NCBI RefSeq assembly: GCF_024006985.1
Contig: NZ_JAMXIB010000001.1
Span: forward strand, 248,001 to 312,000
DNA: 64,000 nt
Reading direction: 5' to 3'
Source: Robiginitalea marina
GTDB taxonomy: Bacteria > Bacteroidota > Bacteroidia > Flavobacteriales > Flavobacteriaceae
This document shows, piece by piece, positions 58,847-61,094 of the stretch. The notes under the pieces were generated by a model. It was given only the letters and a program-made list of their open reading frames with translations, was not told where the DNA came from and ran no database searches. Position numbers and translations under genes: made by a program. The number at the start of each line of letters is the position of its first letter. The first letter of the stretch is position 1.

Positions 58847-58886
58847 ATGCCCTGGCCTAAATTTACCCGTGAAATCAACATTTATC

Positions 58887-59417
58887 ATGAAATTACTAGG
58901 AATTGGATCCCGAATAGCACATCCCGATTATGGCAAAGGGGTGGTAATCAATGTCAGCTCCTCTATGTACTGGGTTTCCTTCCTCGACTCCGGGGTGGAA
59001 ACCATTGACCTGGATGCCGAATTCGAAGTCATTGAAGCCCTGGAGGATGAAGTGGATACCATTAGTTTTTCCGAGGTGGAAACCACCCTCATCCGTATTT
59101 TGAGGAAATGGAGCGATGTGACCACCCTGGTTCCCATTGCTGATAAATGGAAAGGGGGAACCCTCCTAATACAGTCTGCGGACCCGGGCCTGGCCCCAAA
59201 GGAAATCCCCATCGACACCTTTTTCCATAAAATTGTTATGGTCAGGGACCGGCTCCGGGTGATGGAACAAAAAATCAATGCCAGCCCGGTACTGGACGAC
59301 CAGGATAAAGTAGACCTCCAGCAATACATAACCCGAATCTACGGGAGCCTTACCACTTTCAATATCCTTTTCAAGAATAAGAGCGATCAATTCGTGGGCG
59401 AGAAATCAAAGTCCTGA
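58887..59417 (+). CDS. conserved hypothetical protein with N-terminal Tudor/KOW-like module
   Basis: A ~176-residue soluble protein that I do not recognise. The first 50 residues read GIGSRIAHPDYGKGVVINV and then a strand pair YWVSFLDSGVETIDLDAEFEVIE, a small beta-barrel pattern (G-x-x-V/I-x-H-x-x-F/Y-G-x-G-x-V) also seen at the C-terminus of the PcrA-like helicase in this window and in CarD-type domains. The remaining ~120 residues are mainly helical and charged (ETTLIRILRKWSDVTTLVPIADKWKG). It lies between uvrA and the TIGR03915-like gene but is not part of either transcript. An alternative GTG start at 58869 adds six residues. Confidence 0.6.
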   Translation: MKLLGIGSRIAHPDYGKGVVINVSSSMYWVSFLDSGVETIDLDAEFEVIEALEDEVDTISFSEVETTLIRILRKWSDVTTLVPIADKWKGGTLLIQSADPGLAPKEIPIDTFFHKIVMVRDRLRVMEQKINASPVLDDQDKVDLQQYITRIYGSLTTFNILFKNKSDQFVGEKSKS

Positions 59418-59431
59418 CCATTTAGAACACG

Positions 59432-60196
59432 CTAAACCGCTTCCTGATACGCCCTGTGTGGTTTCTCCGGGTGGGGGGAAGAATACCCGTCCCGCTCCAT
59501 GGGGAAGCTGGCCTCCCGGCCCGGAAATCCAGGGGTTAGGTGCTCCCCGGAGTACCCTGGGAACGGATGCATTTCCCGAACCATGGACCGGACCGCAGCC
59601 GGGCAATGAACAAGCCTTTCCAGGAACAGGGGGGAGCCTTCCTGTGCCCAAAGGACCCTGTCCCTCCTTCGATCATAGACCATCCAGGAATTGCCCCTGA
59701 ACCGGTATCGCAATTGACGTGAAAGTAGGGGGAGTACATTGTGTTCAGGCGCAATAACCCCTGCAAAAACCCCTTCTTTAGGGTTTTGGAAGCTCAGGGA
59801 GGTCTCCAACCGGCGCCTTTCACAGGCCACCTGTCCCGCCCACCGCGCCAGGGTTGCCGGCGGATCAGCATTCCCGATAGTCCATTTTTCCGTATAACGC
59901 CCGAGGACCTGCCTGATGAAAGTCAGTAATTTCCTCTCAACCCCCTCCCGCTCGCTGAGGAATGAAAAATAGACCAGCCTTTGGAAGGCCGTCCCTTTTT
60001 TACCGAGGGAATGCCACAGGTCCATGGCAGCGACCCTGTCGGTTCGTATCCGACGCTCATTCTGAAAAAGGCCTTCCGGACCTCCGGTTGTTTTCCGGAG
60101 TTCCACCAGGCCCTCAGGTTGGGCCAGGGCACTACTGCAGGCAGTTAAAAACCCTTCGAAACTTTCATCGTAATAGAAAAGTGCAGGTTGTTCCAT
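59432..60196 (-). CDS. TIGR03915/DUF4130-like putative DNA-repair protein
   Basis: A 254-residue protein that matches the TIGR03915 family: FYYDESFEGFLTACSSAL at the start, SFLSEREGVERKLLTFIRQVL, LARWAGQVACERRRLETSLSFQ, EGVFAGVIAPEHNVLPLLSRQL, RFRGNSWMVYDRRRDR. The DUF4130 domain covers the second half. Family members are usually encoded next to a radical-SAM protein (TIGR03916) and are predicted to act in DNA repair, but no such partner is adjacent here. The last ~60 residues are Pro/Gly-rich and do not show the conserved R-N and M-P-x-R-W segment I expect, so the C-terminus may be diverged. I chose the ATG at 60196, right next to a -7 box and an operator array. Confidence 0.78.
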   Translation of the reverse strand: MEQPALFYYDESFEGFLTACSSALAQPEGLVELRKTTGGPEGLFQNERRIRTDRVAAMDLWHSLGKKGTAFQRLVYFSFLSEREGVERKLLTFIRQVLGRYTEKWTIGNADPPATLARWAGQVACERRRLETSLSFQNPKEGVFAGVIAPEHNVLPLLSRQLRYRFRGNSWMVYDRRRDRVLWAQEGSPLFLERLVHCPAAVRSMVREMHPFPGYSGEHLTPGFPGREASFPMERDGYSSPHPEKPHRAYQEAV

Positions 60197-60204
60197 GTTG
60201 ATGC

Positions 60205-60280
60205 ATTTGGATATACGCCAAATATATGGATATATTCCAATATATGGAAATATTCCATTTTTATTTTGGATATATTCCAT
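60205..60280. promoter_or_regulatory. four-copy palindromic operator array between the repair gene and the S24 repressor
   Basis: Four related palindromes with TTGG/TGGA...TCCA/CCAA arms are present: 60205-60223 (ATTTGG-N7-CCAAAT), 60227-60239 (TGGATATATTCCA), 60244-60258 (ATGGAAATATTCCAT, a perfect 6-bp inverted repeat) and 60267-60279 (TGGATATATTCCA). Their centres lie at 60214, 60233, 60251 and 60273, about 18-22 bases apart, or roughly two helical turns. They overlap the predicted promoters of both flanking genes. This is probably the binding array of the repressor encoded at 60336. Confidence 0.8.
60219..60226 (-). promoter_or_regulatory. -7 box of the TIGR03915-like gene
   Basis: Minus-strand TATATTTG, a perfect TAnnTTTG, 22 bases before the ATG at 60196. 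It overlaps operator copy 1, so repressor binding there should block transcription. Confidence 0.5.
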
Positions 60281-60294
60281 ATTTCTTATCTTTG
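60265..60294 (+). promoter_or_regulatory. promoter of the S24 repressor gene (-33 and -7)
   Basis: TTTG at 60265-60268 and TATCTTTG at 60287-60294 are separated by 18 bases, the best full promoter match in the window. Operator copy 4 (60267-60279) lies between the two boxes, which implies autorepression. The start codon follows 41 bases later. Confidence 0.7.
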
Positions 60295-60335
60295 AAATCA
60301 ATGTGGGGGCCAAGCCCCCTGGAAACCCACTCGGA

Positions 60336-61094
60336 ATGGAAAGCGAACTAACCCTTAAGCGTTTTACGGAAGTAAGGCGGGAACTCGGCTATACACAGGC
60401 TGAATTTGCCGCTATCCTGGGCATCCCTAGCACTACTGCCGATATTGAAAGGGGGAGGACCCGTTTGTCCGGAAAAGTGGTAGCCGAAATGCTCCGGCAA
60501 TTCAAGGTCAACCCCCTGTGGTTGTTCGGGGAAAGCAAGGTACGGCACCTCGATCCATCTTCGGTGAGCGTGATGCCCCGCGTAGTCACGGTAAGCAATG
60601 CCGAACAGGAAAACATTGTGCTGGTTAACGCAAAAGCGGCGGCAGGTTACCCGCAACATCTTCACGATACCAGTTGGTACCGGCAATTGCCCGCGTTTGA
60701 TTTGCCCCTTCCCCAATTCCGAAATGCTTCATACCGCGGGTTTCAGGTCGAAGGCGACAGTATGCTCCCTAACCTTGTCCCCGGAGACTGGGTACTGGCG
60801 AGGGCTGTGGATAACTGGGAAGATATCAGCCCTAACCGGATGTACGTGGTGGTGTTGCAGGATGCTGTGGTAGTTAAGAAGATTGAAAAGCTTCCCGGAA
60901 AAGAGCGGTTGCGCCTGATTTCCCTGAATGAATCCTACCCCCCCTATGAAGTGGAAGCCGCACAAATACAGGAAGTGTGGCTCGTAAGCAGCAAGATTAC
61001 CTTTGGTATGGATGCGACCACTGAAAAAGGCCTGCTAAGGGAACTGCGCCAGTCGATGGAGGAGTTGAAAGAAAAACTGGGCACGGCAAAATAA
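60336..61094 (+). CDS. XRE-family repressor with LexA/S24 peptidase domain
   Basis: A 252-residue transcription regulator. An N-terminal Xre/Cro-type helix-turn-helix lies around residues 19-40 (YTQAEFAAILGIPSTTADIERG). The C-terminal half is an S24 (LexA/UmuD/CI-type) self-cleavage domain: the putative scissile bond is Ala103-Gly104 in AAAGYP, the nucleophile is Ser142 in EGDSMLPNLVPGD, and the general base is Lys181 (or 182) in DAVVVKKIE. Distances agree with autoproteolytic LexA. It should repress its own gene and the divergent repair gene through the four operators, and be inactivated by RecA filaments. The frame runs further upstream to 60195, but the -7 box and operators fix the start at 60336. 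Confidence 0.9.
   Translation: MESELTLKRFTEVRRELGYTQAEFAAILGIPSTTADIERGRTRLSGKVVAEMLRQFKVNPLWLFGESKVRHLDPSSVSVMPRVVTVSNAEQENIVLVNAKAAAGYPQHLHDTSWYRQLPAFDLPLPQFRNASYRGFQVEGDSMLPNLVPGDWVLARAVDNWEDISPNRMYVVVLQDAVVVKKIEKLPGKERLRLISLNESYPPYEVEAAQIQEVWLVSSKITFGMDATTEKGLLRELRQSMEELKEKLGTAK

Follow-up and report, generated by a model that had tools for sequence, protein, structure and literature searches.

A predicted SOS repressor of Robiginitalea marina and its divergent DUF4130/TIGR03915-like target without a radical-SAM partner

The window analysed here is a stretch of 64,000 nucleotides from Robiginitalea marina (contig NZ_JAMXIB010000001.1, positions 248,001 to 312,000, forward strand), and the subject is a divergent gene pair near its end. 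A repressor gene with HTH_3 and S24 domains (60336–61094, plus strand, 252 aa) is separated by a gap of 139 bases, start to start (60197–60335), from a DUF4130/TIGR03915-like gene which lacks the radical-SAM partner of its relatives (59432–60196, minus strand, 254 aa). Taken as a whole, with a probability of about 0.8, the pair is explained as the SOS repressor of a Robiginitalea-type flavobacterium and its divergent target, a protein that is partner-less, has kept its core and ends in a probable degron. In an undamaged cell the repressor would sit on GGA-N5-TCC sites, with site 4 placed just upstream of the predicted repressor −7 box, site 2 upstream of that of the divergent gene, site 3 between the promoters and a weak site 1 over the divergent start region. 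On DNA damage, RecA filaments would trigger self-cleavage of the repressor at Ala103-Gly104, leading to derepression of both genes and of a distant operon encoding a Y-family polymerase and DnaE. The divergent gene probably descends from a radical-SAM and TIGR03915 operon whose radical-SAM member would have been lost several times, this genus included. The remaining protein would have dropped partner-linked parts (REKHRM, PKRYWKYL); the conserved core and an A-V/A/M/I end would have stayed, and the C-terminal degron would make the protein short-lived after the damage pulse.

The repressor and its operator array

The helix-turn-helix domain HTH_3 (PF01381, CI type) is found at the N-terminus of the repressor (38.4 bits, Pfam cut-off 23), and Peptidase_S24 (PF00717) also scores above its cut-off (48.3 bits against 23.3), which bears out the S24/Xre-type assignment made in the original prediction. 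The self-cleavage residues recognized there are likewise present: Ala103-Gly104, Ser142, Lys181 and Lys182 do not vary across an alignment of seven sequences, made up of the window's own and six orthologues with 71–78 % identity to it. Neither the LexA winged-helix nor the LexA family model occurs among the Pfam and NCBIfam matches of the protein at E≤0.01. The proposed separation from classical LexA, with an Xre-type helix-turn-helix and another operator, is thus upheld, and was already published in 2021 (PMC8565304). In a PDB sequence search the sole match was DBP48 (E 0.002). The genome itself contains two S24 matches, the repressor and a 31-bit match (cut-off 23.3) in a 731-aa frame.

Bacteroidetes non-canonical LexA proteins were described as SOS repressors in 2021 (Sanchez-Osuna et al., PMC8565304). 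That paper, as far as its main text goes, reports the CI/Xre-type helix-turn-helix of the family, its GGA-N5-TCC operator and its induction by mitomycin C, one representative having been assayed in gel shifts that included mutated sites and by quantitative reverse-transcription PCR after mitomycin C. The R. marina repressor fits this group by the features compared: an HTH_3 N-terminus and S24 C-terminus, the Ala-Gly bond, the Ser-Lys dyad, a host in the Flavobacteriaceae, and GGA-N5-TCC sites both in its own promoter and ahead of genes for Y-family polymerases and radical-SAM proteins. It is therefore not a new kind of regulator. Set against the main text of the same paper, the locus differs in having a four-site array of fixed geometry with a conserved weak site, and in that its divergent operon lacks the radical-SAM partner. 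With canonical LexA the protein shares an S24 C-terminal domain with self-cleavage residues and, presumably, the SOS role, whereas its helix-turn-helix is of the CI/Xre type rather than the winged LexA one and its operator is another. The damage-response role proposed earlier is supported by this family membership, and the protein is most likely the main DNA-damage (SOS) repressor of this flavobacterium.

For comparison, the best 80 of 389 confirmed loci, picked by their repressor, were combined with the window's own locus. Thirty-six of the resulting 81 loci carry a radical-SAM gene, 44 lack it but have a TIGR03915 homologue, and one (L184, Saonia flava) has neither. Among the named relatives of the window are Robiginitalea, Eudoraea, Maribacter, Muriicola, Flagellimonas and Zobellia. 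This set bears on the suggestion that the protein is a phage CI-type repressor belonging to a prophage or a remnant. Such an origin would account for the CI/Xre-type helix-turn-helix, and the non-canonical LexA family may itself derive from phage repressors, according to the abstract of PMC8565304. However, a single orthologue is found in each of eight of the nine other genomes of the genus (the ninth is 74 % complete), and a TIGR03915 homologue adjoins the repressor in 79 of the 80 named loci. The median ratio of non-synonymous to synonymous substitution rates (dN/dS) of the repressor is near 0.02 (0.019 in partner-less and 0.015 in partner-bearing loci, pairs with dS below 1.3), and no phage structural family was matched among the four window proteins scanned. 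A phage repressor is thus extremely unlikely.

The gap had been described as filled with four related palindromes. Its size and the four centres stand, and three of the sites are exact TGGA-N5-TCCA sequences; the fourth, centred at 60214, is half-degenerate. This is site 1 (TGGATATACGCCA, 60208–60220), which has one intact and one imperfect arm. Site 2 (TGGATATATTCCA, 60227–60239, centre 60233) lies on the side of the divergent gene, site 3 (TGGAAATATTCCA, 60245–60257, centre 60251) between the two promoters, and site 4 (TGGATATATTCCA, 60267–60279, centre 60273) directly upstream of the repressor −7 box. Measured between their starts, the sites are spaced by 19, 18 and 22 bp rather than by the uniform two turns or so that had been assumed. 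Cooperative binding across the predicted sites is possible. When the gap was shuffled 20,000 times with dinucleotides kept, a single shuffle reached three GGA-N5-TCC cores. The whole window holds four TGGA-N5-TCCA sites, against a shuffle mean of 1.62, a number matched by five of 100 shuffles.

Comparison of the gap in relatives, proposed as a check, reveals that the array is conserved. In scans of 330-nt upstream regions (170 nt misses long leaders), 20–23 of the 24 core positions of a four-site array were found in 80 of the 81 loci. The remaining locus, L184, scored 16, equal to the best score among single mononucleotide shuffles of each of the 81 upstream regions. The spacing is 19-18-23 in 49 of the 80 arrays, 19-18-22 in 28 and 18-18-23 in three. 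The core is perfect in all 80 arrays at sites 3 and 4, in 73 at site 2 and in six at site 1, where the commonest letters are TGTA-N5-TCCA. Among the papers searched we did not find this conserved geometry, which to that extent adds to the literature.

That the operators overlap both promoters, as first predicted, is supported, with the correction that the promoter elements which fit are of the Bacteroidota type. The putative −7 boxes of the repressor (TATCTTTG, 60287–60294, plus strand) and of the divergent gene (TATATTTG, 60219–60226, minus strand) both match TAnnTTTG, which we take to be the −7 consensus of Bacteroidota promoters. This motif follows site 4 in 79 of the 80 arrays (2.9 % in shuffles of the same stretches) and is present on the minus strand at sites 1–2, also in 79 (2.8 % in shuffles). 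In S. flava, the sole locus of the 80 without a TIGR03915 neighbour, sites 3 and 4 are retained and sites 1 and 2 are gone. The simplest reading assigns site 4 to the repressor promoter and sites 1–2 to that of the divergent gene.

Predicted sites elsewhere in the genomes

A genome search for TGGA-N5-TCCA had been proposed to define the regulon. On its own the broad scan is weak (164 places in the R. marina genome against 123 for the reversed pattern). A tandem two-site pattern, run on 13 genomes, R. marina included, with strands and overlaps merged by hand, was found at 26 distinct places, and its reversed control at none. Thirteen of the places precede a Y-family polymerase gene or operon, six are repressor divergons, six precede a PA0069-type radical-SAM gene (called by NCBIfam for two of the six and by eye for the others), and one lies inside a frame which its translation suggests is valS. 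The polymerase site occurs once in each of the 13 genomes, directly before the gene in 12 and, in G010, before a DnaE gene that precedes it. At 11 of the 13 loci a DnaE start motif accompanies the regulated polymerase; DnaE is the leading gene in G010, and in G001 none was seen. In R. marina the sites (C46:160216–160246) come immediately before the gene for a 403-aa polymerase, after which a 1,020-aa homologue of DNA polymerase III alpha is encoded.

The recA gene has no GGA-N5-TCC upstream in any of the 13 genomes, another point of difference from the published group. It was therefore rejected as a target for this clade, and the regulon looks narrow. Together with the single operator array common to both genes, this would suit the self-contained circuit of the original prediction, in which the repressor would govern no genes but its own and the divergent one. 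Such a local switch is very unlikely, as paired sites stand before the Y-polymerase gene or operon in R. marina and all of the 13 genomes searched, and before the PA0069-type gene in six; with polymerase and radical-SAM sites in trans, the repressor is not self-contained. In addition, at L158 (1138–9866, genome G019) the repressor is divergent from a row comprising SRAP, a small gene, a Y-family polymerase, DnaE, a TIGR03916 radical-SAM gene and TIGR03915.

The L158 row is a complete damage-response cassette and is perhaps near the ancestral arrangement. In a more distant relative (G048, L162:3860–5996), the repressor and a Y-family-polymerase-like frame are immediate divergent neighbours, and two sites lie between them or at their starts.

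Five exact TGGAWATWTTCCA sites elsewhere in the R. marina genome were set aside as chance. Those at C6:44869 (in a TypA/BipA-like frame) and C46:79849 (beside a tRNA-like sequence) have no partner site at 18–23 bp; three others lie within frames read from their translations as a TonB-type receptor (C22:113596), a TPR/adenylate-cyclase-like protein (C47:19736) and an integrase (C46:80425). Further single near-matches fall in frames read as uvrA-like, recQ-like, valS and citrate synthase. The sequence TGGAAATATTCCA occurs twice on C46, near 79849 and 80425 (L051:1380–2984), 576 bp apart and not in tandem; this pair, at the tRNA-like sequence and the integrase frame, may be due to chance or belong to an attachment region. 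One imperfect site, ATGGAAAATTTCCTT (L087:1501–1515, C22:228378), stands alone a few bases upstream of a frame read as a RecQ-like helicase and could mark a weak regulon member.

The divergent gene and its missing partner

The neighbour had been called TIGR03915-like. The divergent protein matches DUF4130 (PF13566) above the cut-off (41.3 bits against 27), but its TIGR03915 score is 83.7 bits, below the cut-off of 112.25, over profile positions 1–182 of 243, and the usual radical-SAM partner is gone; the full-length relative L242 scores 280 bits. The resemblance therefore stands in qualified form. The relevant passage of PMC3765255 predicts that TIGR03915-type proteins are mutagenesis-related enzymes, with a connection to SplB-like radical-SAM proteins and to uracil-DNA glycosylases; the main text of PMC8565304 terms the COG1573-COG4277 operon a putative base excision repair system. 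For TIGR03915/DUF4130 and the radical-SAM partner, the literature searched gives predictions and no tested activity. Reading TIGR03916 as COG4277, an equation of our own, the relatives resemble that operon (a uracil-DNA-glycosylase-type gene with a radical-SAM gene) in keeping a TIGR03916 and TIGR03915 pair divergent from the repressor and behind the same operators. The window locus differs in having no radical-SAM gene and no uracil-DNA-glycosylase domain. This domain was matched neither in the divergent protein nor in three full-length relatives, all of which match DUF4130.

In 36 of the 80 named loci the repressor and the TIGR03915 gene have a TIGR03916-type radical-SAM gene between them. 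Searches for TIGR03916 gave no match in the R. marina genome or in any of the nine genomes of the genus searched, and found it in seven of 25 genomes overall. Whole-genome searches for the 44 partner-less named loci (43 with a TIGR03915 homologue, and L184) also found none; seven of these genomes are assemblies already included in the 25. As controls, the gene was recovered in five of five genomes that have it at the locus. Some partner-less genomes are metagenome assemblies, the smallest of 2.0–2.9 Mb, so that single absences may be gaps. On the best repressor tree, presence and absence of the partner require nine changes, of which at least three are forced by well-supported branches. As outgroups hold the pair, the direction would be loss, several times and in this genus too.

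Two motifs follow the partner. All 36 proteins with a partner carry REKHRM and 34 of them carry KRYW, the two misses being L192 and L197, which is truncated by a contig end; neither motif occurs in any of the 44 proteins without one. In three well-supported independent contrasts REKHRM tracks the partner always and KRYW in 2.9 of three on average (P 0.25, since three contrasts cannot reach significance). Expressed as the share of columns at least 95 % conserved with a partner that stay in partner-less proteins, retention is 0.81 in residues 1–50 and 0.77 in 51–110, 0.45 in 111–135, 0.53 in 136–170 and 0.83 in 171–195, and then 0.20 in 196–225 and 0.19 in 226–257. In L180, L214 and L228 the start motif was not recognized, and their N-termini are badly trimmed or untrimmed. 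Eleven residues (F13, L17, F44, A57, W61, Y76, P156, L157, W171, D175 and R178) are invariant in all 44 partner-less proteins. This signature, together with the repeated absence of the partner, was not found in the papers searched and so adds to the literature.

Erosion of this kind raises the question of whether the partner-less gene is a functionless relic in the course of being lost. The score below the TIGR03915 cut-off and the eroded C-terminal domain agree with this, as does the mean identity within the genus, 31 % for the divergent protein against 76 % for the repressor (36 pairs). The median dN/dS of the divergent protein is about fourfold higher without the partner (0.168, 15 pairs, at least 13 of them from one clade, Eudoraea, and none from the window's genus) than with it (0.041, 31 pairs; dS below 1.3 throughout). 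The partner-less protein therefore evolves faster, yet the ratio is well under 1 and selection is still purifying in the measurable pairs. In addition, the frame beside the repressor is open at 200–269 aa in all 44 partner-less loci that have the gene, L184 being the only locus without it; the eleven residues above are kept throughout, and operator sites 1–2 are retained along with the gene. A relic is unlikely on this evidence, and the divergent gene appears to be kept by selection despite the absence of its partner.

Structure models were made of the full-length relative L242 and of the window protein (mean predicted local distance difference test score, pLDDT, 79.0 and 82.9); in each model much of the tail stays under 50. 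The top Foldseek match of both models in the PDB was 8a8k, a PAP phosphatase (E 3.8e-4 and 5.8e-4; TM-score 0.39–0.45, root-mean-square deviation 7.8–12 Å), and the next matches include the PF0399 DHH domain, PggH, RecJ and Cdc45, the best TM-scores being low at 0.39–0.45. We take all five to belong to the DHH phosphoesterase superfamily. The DHH Pfam family gave no match in the divergent protein at E≤0.01. A remote DHH-like fold of TIGR03915/DUF4130 is possible and is offered as a lead only.

Downstream, and convergent with the TIGR03915-like gene, is a gene encoding 182 aa (58869–59417, plus strand), which is divergent from uvrA and has no Pfam or NCBIfam match. Proteins that resemble its product by eye adjoin the TIGR03915 gene in L102 and L164.

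The C-terminal end and what the locus may mean

The divergent gene ends in GCG GTT TAG (59432–59440, minus strand), which gives a C-terminal Ala-Val. A final dipeptide of the class [AV][AVIM] is found in 41 of 44 partner-less proteins and 29 of 35 with a partner (the truncated L197 excluded), against 16 of 589 control open reading frames, which are mechanical, non-overlapping frames of at least 200 aa, related across loci. Entropy is 1.70 bits at the last position and 0.75 bits at the one before it, and 2.75 to 3.65 bits from positions −3 to −15. The Ala and Val codons differ among loci and no conservation is seen past the stop. The end persists in the tail-less forms of 200 aa (L193, L199 and L241).

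This conserved A-V/A/M/I end is most likely a protease degron, by analogy with known signals. LAA and RRKKAI are among the degradation signals listed in the relevant part of PMC7857536, and an SOS protein of Escherichia coli, RecN, is reported in PMC10714372 to be degraded by ClpXP via its C-terminus. Like RecN, the divergent protein has multiple operator sites before its gene and a short end that would suit a protease; it differs in being an unrelated protein whose degradation is predicted. On the main rival reading, the Ala-Val would instead be a tip at which a partner protein docks. In its favour, the end is also kept in 29 of the 35 proteins that have the radical-SAM partner, and both models leave much of the tail disordered. 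The variety of the end (A-V/A/M/I) resembles terminal degrons such as those just cited, and RecN provides a precedent for clearance of an SOS protein by this route, so that a docking tip, though possible, is less likely. The kept degron-like terminus was not found in the papers searched and would be a further addition to the literature.

The explanation of the locus as an SOS repressor with a partner-less, degron-ended target has to be weighed against several points. It is computational throughout. The lack of recA sites leaves the predicted regulon narrow, and the −33 boxes were assessed by eye. Only three changes of the partner are forced, which is below significance (P 0.25), and the dN/dS pairs without a partner come almost wholly from Eudoraea. 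At the C-terminus, the [AV][AVIM] class was defined after the ends had been inspected and is missing in the outgroups G019, G021 and G036. It is common with the partner too, and so is by itself uninformative on partner loss. The ssrA tag of the R. marina genome, GESNYALAA, is not identical to the end of the divergent protein.

The repressor half of these results extends a known family of SOS regulators, for which it provides an exact and conserved arrangement of operators; the regulator itself is ordinary and known since 2021, and the divergent-gene half is the more useful. In the loci examined the partner is repeatedly absent, the motifs that go missing are the same and so is the core that stays; this singles out residues of interest and suggests that the protein can work alone. 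If its end is a degron, limitation of the pulse of SOS products by proteolysis would be selected even as the tail decays. More tentatively, repeated loss of the partner may have freed an SOS-controlled DUF4130/TIGR03915 effector, possibly of DHH-like fold, to act alone, its REKHRM/PKRYWKYL module being shed and its pulse limited by the degron. If so, the partner-less lineages would be a natural experiment that sorts the residues of the family into radical-SAM-dependent and -independent sets. The conserved array, the signature of partner absence and the kept C-terminal end make a poorly understood family of repair proteins testable.

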